Below are positions 14,738 to 21,319 of a DNA stretch of 21,319 nt, piece by piece. The DNA lies in IMG/VR virus record IMGVR_UViG_3300038825_001161, positions 1-21,319 of that record, one strand, 5' to 3'. The stretch's first letter is position 1. Every line of letters begins with the position of its first letter. The translations under genes were made by a program, and so were the position numbers. The notes under the pieces were generated by a model. That model did not search any database and was not told the DNA's origin. It saw only the letters and a list, made by a program, of their open reading frames with translations. This stretch comes from a virus.

Positions 14738-14746
14738 CTGTTTCAA
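14738..14746 (-). promoter_or_regulatory. Recurrent TTGAAACAG element, copy 5 (before gpW-fusion gene)
   Basis: Minus strand TTGAAACAG begins 35 nt before the ATG at 14711 and contains the TGA stop of the large terminase. It is followed by TTTAAATTAATTTAACGCCG before the ATG. Confidence 0.5.
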
Positions 14747-16653
14747 CTCTGCCAGCCCTTTACGAAGCTCCCACCGCCCTTAAACCGTTTAGTATTTGCG
14801 CGGAAACTGCCTTCTAAGGGCTTTTCTTTTTCGAGGGGCGTAGTTATGGCATCCTCTTTATGTTCGGCCTTAGACGCAATTCTCTTAAAGTTAGGATTAA
14901 GAATAACCATAGCTGCCATAGCGTAAATTCTAACATCTAATGCTTCATTGCGTTTACCCTCTTTTAATATCCATTTACGCTCTCTTACACCGGCTTTAGT
15001 TTTAATGACACACTTCTCTGCTGTTAACTGGTTAAAGTAATCTTCATGGTAGCCACTAGCAAAAGGCCAATGGCAGTAACCATAACCTTCTTCTTCTATT
15101 CTTAGTCTGCCATATACAACATCTTTAGCCGTATCAGTTCCTATACTAAATAACCTAACACCTCTAACACTTGATTTACTTGGCCTACTTACTAATGGTT
15201 TCCCGAAACCTCCTAACCCTTTTATAGCGTATACATTCCTTGGTTGCCTTGGCTTTACAAAATCATATACATCCTTTGTTAGATAACCAGAATCAATACA
15301 TACGGCTGCTACTGGCAACTCCCTGCTATCTTCTGTTGTATATCGTTCTAGTAACCATTTATCTAGCTGCCGCCATATTTCTTTCTGCGATGGGTCGCCG
15401 TATATAACTTTATATTCTATACCCCAACATTCTTCATCTAATCCCCATCCAACTAACTCGGCCTCTATACGGTCTGCTTGCACATCGATGCCACATGTTA
15501 AAACTAATACGCCCTTTGGTATATCCCCCTTGTACGCTTCGCGCCTCGATTCTAAATAATGGCCGTCTATAGTAGCCTCTAGTTCCTCCCATGTTTCTGC
15601 TAAGAATGTATTAATAAAAGTCTTTAAACCTTCTGGCCCTTTCTTTTTAGAATCTAAGAAACCAGCGGCTGCTTGGTGTAACCTATTATTAAAACCTTTC
15701 TTGGGAGGGAACAAACTATTTAACCCATTTAACCTATAACCCCTCTTACCTTCAAACTTAGCTGTAGCTCTCCATTCCCCATTACTAACCATGGTTCTCC
15801 TATCATCATCATCTAACTTAGCTTTACAATGCTCACAAACTATATGCGCCGTTTCTGGCCTATCCTTTTCCCATATAACATTTTTCCATGCTAATATCTG
15901 AAACTCTCCACACTTAGGGCATGGGGTAAACCATTCTTGTTTATCTGTTATGTTATATTCGTTTTCTACCTTACTTAAATCTTTAATAGTAGGTGTGCTG
16001 GTTTTAATGATAACTGCATTAGGAAAAGTGTCGGTTCTTCTTTCCGCTAGGCTTATAGGGTCGCCCTCCGCTCCCGCGCTTGCAGGGTATCTATCTATCT
16101 CGTCACATAATAAAACGCGAATAGGTCGAGCCGCTAAACTACTAGGGCTATTAGCTCCAGCCATAGTTATATGCCCTCCTAAGAATCTTTTATGTAATAA
16201 GGTGTTACCACTATCTCTAGCTTTACCCGTGCTTATAACTTTAGATAGTGCCGCCGTGTCTCTTATCATTGGAGCTAACCTATCCTTAGACCAAGTATCT
16301 GCCATATCTAAAGTAGGTTGGATACATAATATAGGGCTAGGGTCTTGGCATATAAAGTAGGCTACTATATTATTTATACATTCTGTTTTACCAGTTTGCG
16401 AAGCCCACATAAGCGTAACAGATTGCACACTAGAATCTTTTACAGCATTCATAGGTTCCTTCTGATACGGGGCCATGTTTAATCTATACATGCCAGCCCG
16501 TGCGCTAGATTCGCTAGATAGGATTCTATATTTCTCGGCCCATTCGCTAACCGTCAATCTCGGCGGCGGTTCCCATACTTGAAAATTCTGGTTCAGACTT
16601 TTTAGCGTCGGGCCGAATTGCAAACTCAGTTTTTTGTAATCGTGAAAGCTCAT
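14743..16653 (-). CDS. Terminase large subunit, GpA family
   Basis: 636 aa, normal for the lambda GpA family. The N-terminus has the family's WEPPPRLTVSEWAEKYR and APYQKEPMNAV. The ATPase domain shows a Walker-A-like WASQTGKTE (residues about 83-91), Walker B VLLCDEIDRYP (about 180-190) with Asp184/Glu185, and a Zn-ribbon-like CPKC/CEHC pair (residues about 250-280). The nuclease half has GIDVQADRIEAELVGWG and AVCIDSGYLTKDVYDF. It packages DNA into proheads and cuts the concatemer. The ATG at 16653 gives a 107-nt overlap with the small subunit. A start at TTG before TVSEW would shorten it but lose the WEPPPRL motif, so I keep the long form. Confidence 0.95.
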   Translation of the reverse strand: MSFHDYKKLSLQFGPTLKSLNQNFQVWEPPPRLTVSEWAEKYRILSSESSARAGMYRLNMAPYQKEPMNAVKDSSVQSVTLMWASQTGKTECINNIVAYFICQDPSPILCIQPTLDMADTWSKDRLAPMIRDTAALSKVISTGKARDSGNTLLHKRFLGGHITMAGANSPSSLAARPIRVLLCDEIDRYPASAGAEGDPISLAERRTDTFPNAVIIKTSTPTIKDLSKVENEYNITDKQEWFTPCPKCGEFQILAWKNVIWEKDRPETAHIVCEHCKAKLDDDDRRTMVSNGEWRATAKFEGKRGYRLNGLNSLFPPKKGFNNRLHQAAAGFLDSKKKGPEGLKTFINTFLAETWEELEATIDGHYLESRREAYKGDIPKGVLVLTCGIDVQADRIEAELVGWGLDEECWGIEYKVIYGDPSQKEIWRQLDKWLLERYTTEDSRELPVAAVCIDSGYLTKDVYDFVKPRQPRNVYAIKGLGGFGKPLVSRPSKSSVRGVRLFSIGTDTAKDVVYGRLRIEEEGYGYCHWPFASGYHEDYFNQLTAEKCVIKTKAGVRERKWILKEGKRNEALDVRIYAMAAMVILNPNFKRIASKAEHKEDAITTPLEKEKPLEGSFRANTKRFKGGGSFVKGWQS

Positions 16654-17167
16654 TTAATAACTCGTCTGTAGCTTGTTCATCTAGTGGGCTTTGTAATATC
16701 TTAGTTCTACATGCAGTAAATACATCCTGCATATATCGTTCTACTAATATCTTGGGCAACCAGTTCCCTCGTACTATATCTAATTCTGCTTCTAGCTTTA
16801 AACATTGGGCTAATATACGCCTTCTTTTTAAATCGCCTTCATCTTCATATTCAGAACCTTTTAACCCGTGGTTCTTTATAAATGCTATCCATTCACTTAT
16901 ATCATGGTTTCCGTTACTCTTAGCTTTTGGAGCTTCGTCATGTCTAGCCCACTTCGTTACGCTCGACCTACTAACATTTAATATCTTAGCAAGCTCTACA
17001 TAGTTCTTAGCGTAACCATTATCATTTACAGTATCTTTACCCGCTACAGAAAGCAGATAGGCGCGCTGGCTAGATGTTATACCCTTACCATCTTGCAGCT
17101 TCTTATATGCTAATGCTGCATCTGCTTCTAATAACTTATCAGCTAGTTCTGGTGTTATTGTACTCAC
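16547..17167 (-). CDS. Terminase small subunit, Nu1-like
   Basis: 206 aa from a GTG start at 17167. Residues about 50-85 (YVELAKILNVSRSSVTKWARHDEAP) form a winged-helix or HTH motif of the Nu1 type, which binds packaging-start DNA; the ISEWIAFIKNHG helix follows. The C-terminal half is helical and charged, with LRRRIL-like Leu/Arg repeats (LKRRRILAQCLKLEAELD) for multimerisation and for contacting the large subunit. It lies immediately upstream of the GpA terminase, overlapping it by 107 nt. Only a weak AGG precedes the GTG. Confidence 0.8.
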   Translation of the reverse strand: MSTITPELADKLLEADAALAYKKLQDGKGITSSQRAYLLSVAGKDTVNDNGYAKNYVELAKILNVSRSSVTKWARHDEAPKAKSNGNHDISEWIAFIKNHGLKGSEYEDEGDLKRRRILAQCLKLEAELDIVRGNWLPKILVERYMQDVFTACRTKILQSPLDEQATDELLNELSRLQKTEFAIRPDAKKSEPEFSSMGTAAEIDG

Positions 17168-17192
17168 TACCTAACAATATAATACCAATAGT

Positions 17193-17243: not shown

Positions 17244-17837
17244 TCACTTTATACTATTTAAAAACTCTGCTCTTACTTCTGGTTTATTATACACACCCTT
17301 TAAAGAAGTAGTAACCATTTTAGAATTCTGCTTTCTAGCACCGCGGCATAACATACAGAAATGCTTTGCCTCTAACATTACAGCAACTCCTTTTGGGTGT
17401 AGCTTTTCTAATAGTATATCTGCTACTTGAGTTGTTAACCTTTCCTGCACTTGCAGCCGCTTACTATATACATCTAATACGCGAGCTAATTTAGATAAGC
17501 CTACAATCCTTTTACTCGGTATATAACTTATATGAGCGGTCCCCATGAAGGGCAGCATGTGATGTTCGCAAGTAGAATAGAATTCTATATCTCTTAGAGT
17601 TACCATTTCATCATAACCCTCGTTTTCAAATGTAGTTAATATATCATCTACATTTTGGTCATATCCCCCAAAAACTTCTTTATAGCTTTTAGCTACTCGC
17701 TTTGGAGTATCCAATAAACCTTCCCTATCGGGATTCTCTCCAATGCTTTTTAATATATTGTATATAGATTGCTTTACAATATATTCAGAATCTTGTGAGA
17801 CTGTAGGCTCAGTTTCCAATCTGGCTGGTCTAGGCAT
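17244..17837 (-). CDS. folE: GTP cyclohydrolase I, type IA
   Basis: 197 aa from ATG 17837; a TTG four codons upstream is the only longer alternative. It converts GTP to dihydroneopterin triphosphate, the first step to preQ0. It has the type IA motifs: YSTCEHHMLPF (Zn ligands Cys90 and His93), GLSKLARVLDVYSKRLQVQERLTTQVAD, and HPKGVAVMLEAKHFCMLCRGARKQ with Zn ligand Cys161. Neighbouring queE, queD and queC show that the product goes to 7-deazaguanine rather than folate. The start overlaps the queE 3' end by 64 nt, so it is probably translationally coupled. It is the last gene of the modification cluster before the packaging genes. Confidence 0.96.
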   Translation of the reverse strand: MPRPARLETEPTVSQDSEYIVKQSIYNILKSIGENPDREGLLDTPKRVAKSYKEVFGGYDQNVDDILTTFENEGYDEMVTLRDIEFYSTCEHHMLPFMGTAHISYIPSKRIVGLSKLARVLDVYSKRLQVQERLTTQVADILLEKLHPKGVAVMLEAKHFCMLCRGARKQNSKMVTTSLKGVYNKPEVRAEFLNSIK

Positions 17838-18403
17838 AGCTGTATACAATGTTTTATATTTTCTTGGTTAGGCCGGTTATCATCAAATATAGGGCTACAG
17901 TATTTGTTAATTATAGTTACATCATCTGGTTCACTTAACCTAAAATGCCCCTTATGCCTAACTAGTCTATATTCATCTATAGTAGCATCTTTAAAGTTTT
18001 TAGTTATAACATGGTTAGCAACTTTAGGTGAAACAACTAACCAATCTATAACACTTCTTAAAGATTCGCTAACATAGTTATTACCATTAGTTTCAATAGC
18101 AATTAAAAACCCTGCATCCTTAAAGTATTCTAAAACATCAAAACTTAATTGTAGTAATGGTTCACCGCCGGTAAACACTAACCACTTGCAAGGGTCATGC
18201 TGTAGTATTTGCAGCTTTAATTCCTTTAAGTTAAATGTTTTGTTACTTTCAAATTCAGTATCACAAAAGCCACAAGTTAAATCACATCCAGCTAACCTTA
18301 TAAATATACTTGGTTCTCCGGTACGCGCTCCTTCGCCTTGCAAACTATAAAATATTTCATTTACATCTAGTTCAGCTAATTCTCTTAATTTATTAATACT
18401 CAT
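17774..18403 (-). CDS. queE: 7-carboxy-7-deazaguanine synthase, radical SAM
   Basis: A 209-aa radical-SAM enzyme converting carboxytetrahydropterin to 7-carboxy-7-deazaguanine. The protein opens with the family's FYSLQGEGARTGEPSIFIRLAGC. It then has the CxxxCxxC cluster motif (Cys40, Cys44, Cys47; CDLTCGFCDTEF), the FTGGEPLLQ SAM motif and IETNG, all expected of QueE. The C-terminus WKLSLQSHKILNIL matches the usual family ending. The start ATG overlaps the queD stop as ATGA. Folding and length are normal and no residue appears to be missing. Confidence 0.96.
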   Translation of the reverse strand: MSINKLRELAELDVNEIFYSLQGEGARTGEPSIFIRLAGCDLTCGFCDTEFESNKTFNLKELKLQILQHDPCKWLVFTGGEPLLQLSFDVLEYFKDAGFLIAIETNGNNYVSESLRSVIDWLVVSPKVANHVITKNFKDATIDEYRLVRHKGHFRLSEPDDVTIINKYCSPIFDDNRPNQENIKHCIQLCLDQPDWKLSLQSHKILNIL

Positions 18404-18834
18404 ATACCTACTTCGTATTTCGCACTATTCTTATCATCTTCAAAAACTTCTACACTCTTAATAGCTACCCTGCCATTAGTTTCAAATGTAACAGTCCTCC
18501 TAAACTGTTCTTCTATATATTTACATAACCCCTCGGCTGATGCATCCGGTACTATATGTAATTTCCATAATACACTAGCATAAGTTTTAAAGTAGTCTAA
18601 GTGTGTATCATGCTGGCAAACTAATAAAGCATGGTCTAGCTTCTTATCTATCCAATCCTTAATAAAATCTAGTTTGCCAAAATCTATTACAAAACCATTT
18701 TCATCTAACTCCTTTGCTATAAACGTAAATTTAATAGCCCAGTTATGACCATGCACATACTGGCAATGCCCATCATGCAATGGCTGTCGATGTGCAAAGG
18801 GTATATTATAATATGTCTTACTACACGTTATCAT
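18400..18834 (-). CDS. queD: 6-carboxy-5,6,7,8-tetrahydropterin synthase
   Basis: A 144-aa PTPS-family enzyme that turns dihydroneopterin triphosphate into CPH4. It shows the Zn-binding His15, His28 and His30 (FAHRQ, HGHNW) and the QueD-type Cys24 in CxxxHGH, along with VIDFGKLD, LDHALL and a C-terminal SAEGLCKYIE plus VEVFED. The CxxxHGH spacing favours QueD over biopterin-forming PTPS. It overlaps queC by 14 nt and queE by ATGA. The annotated start directly precedes the family's initial strand. Confidence 0.95.
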   Translation of the reverse strand: MITCSKTYYNIPFAHRQPLHDGHCQYVHGHNWAIKFTFIAKELDENGFVIDFGKLDFIKDWIDKKLDHALLVCQHDTHLDYFKTYASVLWKLHIVPDASAEGLCKYIEEQFRRTVTFETNGRVAIKSVEVFEDDKNSAKYEVGI

Positions 18835-19507
18835 ATTCAGTAGGGTCTATTACTCCTGCTATACTAAAAGCCTCTATACGTTCTCGGCACGTTCCACACT
18901 TACCACAATGCTTTTCCCCGCCCTCATAGCAAGACCAAGTAGTTGTCCAATCAATTCCGTAATGTTCGCCTAGTGTTACTATATCTTCTTTTCGCTTGTC
19001 TAAGAATGGGGCATATAGTTCGACCTTATTCCAATCTGCTTCATTTAAAGCACCCTGCATAGCGTCTACGAAACTTTTCCTGCAATCTGGATATACTGCA
19101 TGGTCACCGTTATGCGCTCCATAAGCAACCGCTTCAGCACCAGTAGAAAATGCATAGGCAGCTGCTATACTTAGCATCATCATATTTCTATTAGGTACTA
19201 CTGTTTTCTTCATATTATCTTCTTCATAATGCCCATGTGGTACTTCTACATTATCATCAGTCTGGCTACTGCCTTTAAGCAGTTTCTTAACATCTGATAA
19301 ATCCACTATCTCTAAAGGAACATTTAATTTAAAACATGTAGCCTTAGCATAGTTTAATTCTTTGCTATGCCTTTGCCCGTAGTTAAACGATATACAGTTA
19401 ACTTCGTTGCCCTGCTCTAATATGTGATGCAGTAAGACCGTAGAGTCCATACCGCCCGATAATATATGTATAGTATTCATTAGTACAAAATCGTATGAAT
19501 GAATCAT
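18821..19507 (-). CDS. queC: 7-cyano-7-deazaguanine (preQ0) synthase
   Basis: A 228-aa ATP-dependent enzyme that makes preQ0 from 7-carboxy-7-deazaguanine. It has the PP-loop SGGMDST (residues about 17-23), NYGQRHSKEL, VPNRNMMMLSIAAAYA, YGAHNGDHAVYPDCR and the Zn-binding C-terminal CYEGGEKHCGKCGTCRER. There is no fused glutamine amidotransferase, so it is the plain QueC and not the GAT-QueC described in phage 9g. The ATG at 19507 overlaps the dpdA stop as ATGA. A second Met ten residues in (MNTIHILSGG) would fit family N-termini better, so either may be used. Confidence 0.95.
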   Translation of the reverse strand: MIHSYDFVLMNTIHILSGGMDSTVLLHHILEQGNEVNCISFNYGQRHSKELNYAKATCFKLNVPLEIVDLSDVKKLLKGSSQTDDNVEVPHGHYEEDNMKKTVVPNRNMMMLSIAAAYAFSTGAEAVAYGAHNGDHAVYPDCRKSFVDAMQGALNEADWNKVELYAPFLDKRKEDIVTLGEHYGIDWTTTWSCYEGGEKHCGKCGTCRERIEAFSIAGVIDPTEYDNV

Positions 19508-20343
19508 CTTTTTAAAACGCTTATTCTATTCTGCGCTGTTTTTTGGTGTATACTTAAACGAGTTATATGCTCTCCATCTATATGACCTAATAACTTACCA
19601 AATTTAGCCCTAGCACGTTTTTCTAACTTTAAATAATACTCTACTTCACCTTGTAAATTTTGCCTACTTCCCTTTACTGTCATTTGGCCAAATTGATTCC
19701 ATCTACCATATTTGCACGGGCCTACCTCCCAGTTAGTTGCATCTACACTATCCCAAGGTAATGCCATTATAGATTTCTCACTACCATAACCAAAACCGTG
19801 CATACGCTTAGGCCAAACTCTAGCGAAGCATTGTTCAGCGAATTTATTCTTAATACCAAACTTCATGGCTACACCACCTAACGCTATTTTAGGATAATCT
19901 TTTGCCATGCCCTTTAATACATTCCAAGGCTCTCCATGATGATAGCAGGGTATAGCAGGAACACCTTGCCGCCACATTTTCTCTGTATTCCTAAGACTAG
20001 CTTTCCAATCCCCTATAACATCTAAACTAAAAACTTCTACTAGTGTACTATCTTTAGCTAACAGTTCCTTTGCAGTATCTATATAATCCTGCAAGTTAAT
20101 TACACTACCTTTATTATGCGCGCTAAATGCACCAGAATCTAAAGCCCAGTTTCTATATACATAATCACTTTGCTTTTTTAGAAACGGTTTAAGGTAAACA
20201 TAACTTATAAGTAGTGCGGGTTTTAAACTTTCAGGAATTTTTTTGCACCCTCTTATACCTTGCAAAACATTTCCACCTTGAGCCACGCCATCATGCGCTA
20301 ACCTTACTGTAGGTGCATCTAATTCTGTCTGCGCATCTGGCAT
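19504..20343 (-). CDS. dpdA: DpdA-type 7-deazaguanine DNA transglycosylase (TGT-like)
   Basis: A 279-aa TIM-barrel TGT paralogue predicted to exchange guanine in DNA for preQ0. Seen in order: WALDSGAFSAH (about 66-76; Asp69, equivalent to the DSGGFQ loop of tRNA TGT), FSLDVIGDW (105-113), PAIPCYHHGEPW (129-140), KIALGGVAMK (152-161), HGFGYGS (182-188) and PWDSVDATNWEVG (196-207). I place the probable nucleophile Asp198 at the position of the TGT FDCVMPTR loop by analogy. The usual tRNA-TGT Zn site is not apparent, as in DpdA proteins. It overlaps the ParB-like gene by 25 nt and queC by ATGA. The complete preQ0 pathway next to it strongly supports DNA modification. Confidence 0.88.
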   Translation of the reverse strand: MPDAQTELDAPTVRLAHDGVAQGGNVLQGIRGCKKIPESLKPALLISYVYLKPFLKKQSDYVYRNWALDSGAFSAHNKGSVINLQDYIDTAKELLAKDSTLVEVFSLDVIGDWKASLRNTEKMWRQGVPAIPCYHHGEPWNVLKGMAKDYPKIALGGVAMKFGIKNKFAEQCFARVWPKRMHGFGYGSEKSIMALPWDSVDATNWEVGPCKYGRWNQFGQMTVKGSRQNLQGEVEYYLKLEKRARAKFGKLLGHIDGEHITRLSIHQKTAQNRISVLKR

Positions 20344-20909
20344 ATATTAGTTATTGATTGGGCGTAGTTATCTGATTCACCTATAGATTTAGTTATTATA
20401 TCCCATTGCAGTTTAGTAAACTTAACTGACTTACTATCATCATTTGCATCATCCATATCTTCTATCGATGGTGGTTCCCATTCTGCATTAAGTAACGGGT
20501 CTATCTCATGGTCAAGAAAACCAGATAACTCTAAATCTAAGTTAGCTTCTTTTAGTTCCTTTAATATATTACCTACATCTTGAAAATCTAACTCGGCTAA
20601 TTCTGCTACCCTGTTATCTGCTAATAGGTGTGCTTTCTCGTCTGCTTCGTTTTCAAAGTCTTGATAATCGACCGGAACCTTTTCTTGATTCAATACCTTA
20701 GCAGCCGCCAGTCGGCCATGCCCTGCTACTATATAACCGGAACGCTTAGAAACTGTTATAGGGTTTCTCCATCCTTGGGCATTTATAATTCTAGCTAACA
20801 GATTAACCTGACGTTCATCATGCTTATTAGGATTATTAGGATGCTCTACTAGCTTTAGTATATCTACTAGCTCCGAGTGTGAACAATGTACCTTGATTGA
20901 CTCTGACAT
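20319..20909 (-). CDS. ParB/sulfiredoxin-fold domain protein next to dpdA
   Basis: A 196-aa protein. Residues about 17-90 are a ParB N-terminal domain (LVEHPNNPNKHDERQVNLLARIINAQGWRNPITV, then GYIVAGHGRLAAAKVL). The GHGR box occupies the position of the nucleotide-binding GxxR motif. DEKAHLLADNRVAELAELD follows, as in many phage ParB-domain proteins that are often fused to DNA methyltransferases; no methyltransferase domain is present here. The C-terminus is acidic and helical (EPPSIEDMDDAND, KFTKLQWDIITKSIG). A good Shine-Dalgarno (AAAGGAG, 11 nt upstream) supports this start. Overlap with dpdA suggests a joint function. Alternative roles are DNA binding or partition. Confidence 0.75.
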   Translation of the reverse strand: MSESIKVHCSHSELVDILKLVEHPNNPNKHDERQVNLLARIINAQGWRNPITVSKRSGYIVAGHGRLAAAKVLNQEKVPVDYQDFENEADEKAHLLADNRVAELAELDFQDVGNILKELKEANLDLELSGFLDHEIDPLLNAEWEPPSIEDMDDANDDSKSVKFTKLQWDIITKSIGESDNYAQSITNICQMRRQN

Positions 20910-21319
20910 AGATTTAGTTTCTCCTTTTCTATAGCTGCTTCTAGTTCCTTCATATCCCTTAGCTCCCCTGCTTCTTTATAATGGTTAATTATACCCCTGC
21001 CAAAATCTTTAGGCTGGCTACGTTTAATTACATCATAGTAATCCCATCCTATTAACTTAATAGAAGAATCATCTATATACTTCGCTAAGACTATACGCTC
21101 TGCATGTTTCTTGTGCTGCTTACATAGAACACTAATGGGCCTTCTATATGTCTTAACATCTATAGTAATTGCACCTATAGAAAAATCATAACTATCACCG
21201 CCGCCGTTTAGGTTCTCCCAAGTTAAGGGCAAAGCGTATGCATGACTAAAGGCTACTTCACCTAGTAGACCTATATATTCGTGATTTGCGGAAAGGGGTT
21301 TGTAAGAAGTTTGGCCTAT
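20867..21319 (-). CDS. PD-(D/E)XK nuclease-like protein (5' end outside window)
   Basis: The frame stays open to the right edge: 29 further codons precede the TTG at 21232, so at least 150 residues are visible and the N-terminus is outside. The extra residues read IGLLGEVAFSHAYALPLTWENLNGGGDSYDF. Together with AITIDVKTYRR they give the E...D...DxK arrangement of a PD-(D/E)XK nuclease fold (GLLGE, DSYDF, IDVK). Beyond that are a strand with ERIVLAKYIDD, IKLIGWDYYDVIK and a helical end. Similar small proteins are frequent in phages. It overlaps the ParB-like gene by 43 nt, so it may belong to the modification module or be an unrelated accessory nuclease. Confidence 0.7.
   Translation of the reverse strand: MGQTSYKPLSANHEYIGLLGEVAFSHAYALPLTWENLNGGGDSYDFSIGAITIDVKTYRRPISVLCKQHKKHAERIVLAKYIDDSSIKLIGWDYYDVIKRSQPKDFGRGIINHYKEAGELRDMKELEAAIEKEKLNLCQSQSRYIVHTRS
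20921..20927 (-). promoter_or_regulatory. Shine-Dalgarno before ParB-like gene
   Basis: AAAGGAG on the minus strand, 11 nt before the ATG at 20909. It is the clearest ribosome binding site in the window, lying within the last codons of the nuclease-like gene, and fixes the ParB-like start. Confidence 0.6.

Follow-up and report, generated by a model that had tools for sequence, protein, structure and literature searches.

A viral preQ0-DpdA cassette predicted to place 7-deazaguanine in virion DNA, and its exchange for other DNA-modification genes in close relatives

FolE, QueD, QueE and QueC together convert GTP to preQ0 (7-cyano-7-deazaguanine). Here we analyse a viral cassette uniting these four genes with dpdA in the IMG/VR record IMGVR_UViG_3300038825_001161 (the window, i.e. 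the whole stretch of 21,319 bases analysed, which is probably a fragment). Rosebush and CAjan, both having the same gene set, carry dPreQ0 at approximately 28% and 32% of G, respectively, and deletion of dpdA in CAjan resulted in loss of dPreQ0 and in sensitivity to all restriction enzymes tested (Hutinet 2019, PMC6884629). The window has the gene content of this dPreQ0 group, i.e. DpdA, FolE, QueD, QueE and QueC. The cassette itself is a standard set and the virus joins the known dPreQ0 phages, adding a probably marine virus group to those expected to replace guanine with preQ0. What is new here is comparative, as close relatives have other DNA-modification genes in place of parts of the cassette at this site.

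The cluster B mycobacteriophages Ares (genus Rosebushvirus) and CRB2, which stand in for Rosebush in our sequence comparisons, show the same order parB-dpdA-queC-queD-queE-folE directly before the terminase genes as the window, the same enzyme set and, likewise, no recognised amidotransferase in the block. Proteins of window and CRB2 are 33-48% identical over the aligned parts (ParB 29%), the terminase small and large subunits (TerS, TerL) are not detectably related, the GC content differs (about 40% in the window, 69% in cluster B) and the DpdAs fall into different clades. The Escherichia phages CAjan and 9g (Queuovirinae), in whose DNA 7-deazaguanine was measured, share FolE, QueD, QueE, QueC and DpdA with the window but have another gene order, beside the DNA polymerase gene, and lack an annotated ParB-like gene adjacent to dpdA; the 9g relative BRET has Gat-QueC in contrast to the unfused QueC of the window. 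In bacterial dpd islands (dpdA, dpdB, dpdC, dpdD-K) a transglycosylase and a ParB-like protein insert preQ0 into DNA, a pairing as in the window. However, these islands mark self-DNA for a restriction system, whereas the window genes reside in a phage structural genome with its own preQ0 pathway. No restriction gene of the dpdD-K type was recognised among the block genes by PADLOC or Pfam, the window being a fragment and the dpd coverage of PADLOC being unchecked. The nearest isolates, the Roseobacter phages CRP-821, CRP-811 and CRP-406 (identities: TerL 49-52%, portal 40-42%, capsid 33-37%), have genomes of about 30 kb without annotated DpdA, FolE or Que genes; the annotation of CRP-821 lists DNA cytosine methyltransferase genes instead.

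A first-pass annotation of the window had reported FolE, QueD, QueE, QueC and DpdA in one overlapping block with intact catalytic motifs, and open reading frame (ORF) coordinates, profile matches and motifs all agree with this. The five ORFs are uninterrupted and overlapping at 17244-20343 on the minus strand; the virion genes (terminase, portal, capsid, tail) have the same orientation. FolE (GTP cyclohydrolase I; 17244..17849) matches PF01227 (E=1e-72) as well as NF006825 and TIGR00063 above cut-off, and contains CEHH, QERLT and HFCM. QueE (7-carboxy-7-deazaguanine synthase, radical S-adenosylmethionine (SAM) enzyme, 209 amino acids (aa); 17774..18403) matches PHROG 2076 (E=4e-36) and, under the cut-off of that model, TIGR04508 (E=4e-37), with CxxxCxxC present. 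QueD (6-carboxytetrahydropterin synthase, 144 aa; 18400..18834) matches PF01242 (E=2e-24) and PHROG 2389 (E=4e-31) and has CxxxHGH. QueC (7-cyano-7-deazaguanine synthase, 228 aa; 18821..19507) matches PF06508 (E=7e-67) and TIGR00364 above cut-off, shows SGGxDS, YxQxHxxE, VPxRN and YPDC, and is unfused, lacking a glutamine-amidotransferase domain. Compared with the motif set that a 2026 study gives for canonical preQ0-forming QueC (PMC13329287), it is complete and deviates in one point, the cysteine motif C(x)7CxxCxxC having a first spacer of seven residues instead of the canonical eight. The overlaps amount to 4 nucleotides (nt) for DpdA/QueC, 14 nt for QueC/QueD and 4 nt for QueD/QueE. QueE and FolE overlap by 76 nt if FolE starts at the TTG at 17849 and by less from the ATG at 17837, which is probably the actual start.

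DpdA (DNA 7-deazaguanine transglycosylase, 279 aa; 19504..20343, minus strand) has no Pfam or NCBIfam match. It matches PHROG 887 (E=2e-28) and PHROG 7068 (E=4e-13), both annotated as queuine tRNA-ribosyltransferase, and contains DSGAF, LDVIGD and SVDATNW. Since a sequence search of the PDB returned no tRNA-guanine transglycosylase (TGT), we used a structural model and structural alignment. The top 50 VIA matches of the AlphaFold2 model, built from 54 window and IMG/VR sequences (predicted local distance difference test 84), are all TGTs (Z 16.0-16.6, 225-238 residues, root-mean-square deviation 3.1-3.6); Foldseek alone gave a weak result with an archaeosine TGT first (E=2e-4). Across the 54 DpdAs D108, H135, H182 and D201 are invariant and D69 is nearly so. 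The zinc motif CxCxxC of tRNA-TGTs is present in E. coli TGT and absent from the window DpdA, from CAjan DpdA and from 138/138 DpdA ORFs. In a quick tree of 98 rows with long branches in the outgroup, all DpdAs split from four TGTs and nt-1 DpdA2 with a Shimodaira-Hasegawa-like approximate likelihood ratio (SH-aLRT) support of 99, and the clustering with tRNA-TGTs, which the first-pass annotation had named as speaking against DNA modification, was thus not observed. The window DpdA lies in a clade of 42 rows, all from uncultivated viruses (support 97), with the DpdA of the contig L010 as its sister (support 99). It is not of the nt-1 DpdA2 type, as H135 and H182 are present and nt-1 DpdA2 lies outside the DpdA group on a long branch of uncertain placement. 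Sequence and model support the window protein being a true DpdA of the phage type. Scanning IMG/VR with the single DpdA sequence yielded nothing, while an alignment query yielded 79 loci; DpdA columns that might track the linked enzyme were dropped as being confounded by clade.

The cassette comprises a sixth gene that the first-pass annotation did not mention, encoding a ParB-like protein of 196 aa (20319..20909, minus strand) and overlapping dpdA by 25 nt on its upstream side. The protein matches ParB_N (E=3e-4) and PHROGs 498 and 620 (E=1e-38 and 1e-34), and in 50 of 68 loci dpdA has a ParB-like gene on its own strand at a distance of no more than 300 bp. For bacterial dpd systems DpdB is described as a ParB-like ATPase that drives insertion and may be dispensable in some (PMC12839542), and the paper on CRB2 suggests the phage ParB gene being the DpdB counterpart (PMC6392294); the pairing was thus already described and we dropped it as a new finding. 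By analogy to these systems, the window protein is a candidate for a DpdB-like role in insertion.

We propose that the block serves a tailed phage as its DNA-modification cassette. In this mechanism, FolE, QueD, QueE and QueC would make free preQ0 from GTP, and DpdA, helped by the ParB-like (DpdB-type) protein, would excise guanine from replicated viral DNA and substitute preQ0 for it ahead of packaging; the resulting dPreQ0 would resist many restriction enzymes. The most likely purpose is protection against bacterial restriction enzymes. The complete preQ0 pathway together with a true DpdA makes 7-deazaguanine in the virion DNA likely, in line with the first-pass annotation; we regard the presence of some 7-deazaguanine as highly probable and dPreQ0 as probably being the main modified base.

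ParB-DpdA-QueC-QueD-QueE-FolE is the commonest order (30 of 69 non-redundant loci, window included), which argues against a chance arrangement. In the window, folE is separated by 76 nt from the gene of TerS (16547..17167, minus strand; PHROG 57, E=1.5e-6), followed by TerL of the GpA type (14743..16653, minus strand; PF05876, PF20454). Many IMG/VR loci have terminases downstream of folE, belonging in loci checked singly to PHROG families 9, 38 and 15. Since the terminases beside the cassette represent three or more PHROG families, the adjacency recurs and was not passed on together with a single terminase. The idea of a non-random, packaging-linked order therefore holds as far as conservation and position upstream of diverse terminases are concerned, but the order is an ordinary one shared with the cluster B mycobacteriophages and no distinguishing feature. 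Expression in the late programme, as put forward in the first-pass annotation, would be conjectural, given that scans of the window for promoters and terminators gave results at chance level and that in CAjan these genes adjoin the DNA polymerase gene.

Four IMG/VR contigs encode TerL proteins 85-87% identical to that of the window, and these sisters reveal exchanges at one site. L007 keeps queC-queD-queE-folE-terS-terL, and the cassette proteins kept in L007 and L010 show 62-79% identity. In L009 (terminase 86% identical) the segment 17169..20517 (minus strand; blastn), which reaches from the middle of parB to the end of folE, is missing and a DNA methyltransferase domain is in its place. Window and L009 are homologous at the DNA level through the ParB N-terminal part and the nuclease-like ORF that precedes the ParB-like gene (76%); homology stops at window position 20517 and restarts at 17168 (74% over 9.5 kb; blastn). 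At the exact cassette site L009 encodes a ParB-DNA methyltransferase fusion (L009:578-1984; N6_N4_Mtase, SPPY motif), the N-terminal part of which is 73% identical to the window ParB-like protein; between the breakpoints lies only the remainder of this fusion and no dpdA or que genes. According to a 2025 paper, it is unknown what ParBc does when fused to DNA methyltransferases (PMC12783734). In L010 (terminase 85% identical) the segment 18836..19590 (minus strand; blastn), i.e. queC and the last approximately 28 dpdA codons, is swapped for the gene of a 270-aa SAM methyltransferase, MTq (L010:1192-2004), with homology stopping near the dpdA end and restarting at the queD start. Chimerism of the L010 contig is unlikely because L041, L099 and further loci, which stem from other samples, show the order DpdA-MTq-QueD-QueE-FolE as well. 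With the same flanks, one virus having preQ0 genes, one MTq for QueC and one a ParB-joined DNA methyltransferase represent a natural experiment, raising the testable questions which base MTq makes and which role the ParB-like domain plays for enzymes as unlike as DpdA and DNA methyltransferases. Tentatively, the site upstream of the terminase could be an exchange point for whole modules sharing a ParB-like domain, with the swap in L010 changing the base via MTq.

Several points weigh against dPreQ0 formation by the window cassette. The base chemistry is a prediction from the genes, and with the window being a 21 kb fragment, tailoring enzymes (ArcS, QueF or others) may be encoded beyond it. 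The closest experimentally tested DpdAs are distant (28% to Ares, the Rosebush relative; 32% to CAjan, over half of the length), and the large clade to which the window DpdA belongs contains no isolate. The ParB_N match is weak, and there is no DndB Pfam match although bacterial DpdB is reported to match DndB models. A cassette modifying DNA with a main base other than dPreQ0 (e.g. dG+, dADG, dPreQ1 or dCDG), through tailoring enzymes elsewhere in virus or host, would fit the probable fragment nature of the window, the swap of queC for a methyltransferase in L010 and the deviation of several phages from gene-content predictions (Hutinet 2019, PMC6884629). We consider it unlikely as QueC is intact and unfused and as no QueF above cut-off was found in the records of 13 relatives, several being 40-88 kb long; within the block, the window being a fragment, no amidotransferase, ArcS or QueF was recognised. 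A cassette boosting queuosine in host tRNA for translation, with the DpdA-like protein as a tRNA enzyme, draws on preQ0 being also a queuosine precursor and on the same proposal for phages having preQ0 genes but no DpdA (PMC6884629). The separation of DpdA from the TGTs (SH-aLRT 99), the absent zinc motif, the pairing with a ParB-like gene and the likewise DNA-modifying methyltransferase at the same site in L009 make this highly improbable. Least credible is a decaying or silent cassette yielding little or no modification, as in Orion and Salmonella phage 7-11, which have DpdA alone and no or trace modification (PMC6884629), given that the compact overlapping genes have no stops, that all tested motifs are intact and that L007 and L010 conserve the cassette.

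A profile scan for MTq yielded 52 viral and 8 genomic loci, 47 of them non-redundant. DpdA or preQ0 genes are nearby in 44 of these 47, and queC is missing in 41 and retained in six. When FolE, QueD and QueE are all present, queC is found in 5/24 MTq-anchored compared to 52/62 DpdA-anchored loci (Fisher p = 7e-8, ignoring relatedness). Correcting the mutual exclusion of QueC and MTq for relatedness leaves six independent pairs, 3.7 in the same direction, 0.0 opposite and 2.3 undecided, too few for significance; the MTq label changes at least four times on well-supported branches of the DpdA tree. The full records of L041, L010, L099, L104 and L109, themselves possibly fragments, contain no QueC. 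The MTq model shows an ordinary class I methyltransferase fold, which cap guanine-N7, small-molecule and carboxyl (CmoM) methyltransferases match equally well, so that no substrate is assigned from the fold. Lacking QueC, the pathway in L010 would stop at the QueE product 7-carboxy-7-deazaguanine (CDG), which MTq would methylate, perhaps to a methyl ester, and DpdA would place the product in DNA. This is the simplest idea for the role of MTq, judged from gene content, and we hold it to be possible but doubtful because Faecalibacterium-type loci have no QueD, QueE or FolE nearby and six MTq loci keep queC. These Faecalibacterium-type prophage loci, having ParB-DpdA-MTq, count against generalising the idea. 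Among their host genomes, two Faecalibacterium genomes from named strains (L150, L154) showed no convincing QueC, and these two and a Gemmiger metagenome-assembled genome (MAG; L148) no QueD, so that the substrate there must come from elsewhere. MTq may make an undescribed methylated 7-deazaguanine, CDG being the putative substrate; no description of a methylated CDG base was found in the literature covered, which did not include Cui et al. 2023 on further phage 7-deazaguanine bases. Should CDG methylation hold, MTq would define a widespread branch of DNA modification with 7-deazaguanines that does without QueC.

MTq was not found in any isolated DpdA phage. Isolated phages have only distant relatives (22-26%), with genes for pyrimidine hydroxymethylase or for thymidylate synthase and dCMP deaminase as neighbours and no DpdA nearby. 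Distant MTq-like methyltransferases are encoded by Stenotrophomonas phage AXL3, Pseudoxanthomonas phage PW916 and two Manatee Spring phages (L160-L163), adjoining NTP-pyrophosphohydrolase and pyrimidine-modification genes. Identity of MTq with the methyltransferase of Cellulophaga phage phiSM was rejected, as none of the tested ORFs of the phiSM cassette is MTq-like. In phiSM, too, a ParB_N protein (L164:3839-4303) comes after DpdA, and a CxxCxxCC-domain protein is encoded directly upstream of dpdA (L164). A Candidatus Nitrosotalea MAG contig (L152), archaeal and possibly viral, shows QueD-QueE-FolE-QueC and then MTq. One QueC-less cassette contains a carbon-nitrogen hydrolase gene (L086:6306-7340; Pfam match) and another a protein similar by eye, with no Pfam match (L083:6967-7959). 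The cassettes L021, L027, L041, L063, L082, L092, L143 and L151 contain two or three DpdA-like ORFs that stand in tandem or close by.

No tRNA and no Rfam match were found in the window. The partial nuclease-like ORF (20867-21319), situated upstream of the gene for the ParB-like protein, runs off the window end; it has no Pfam, NCBIfam or PHROG match and is kept in L009 at 79%.

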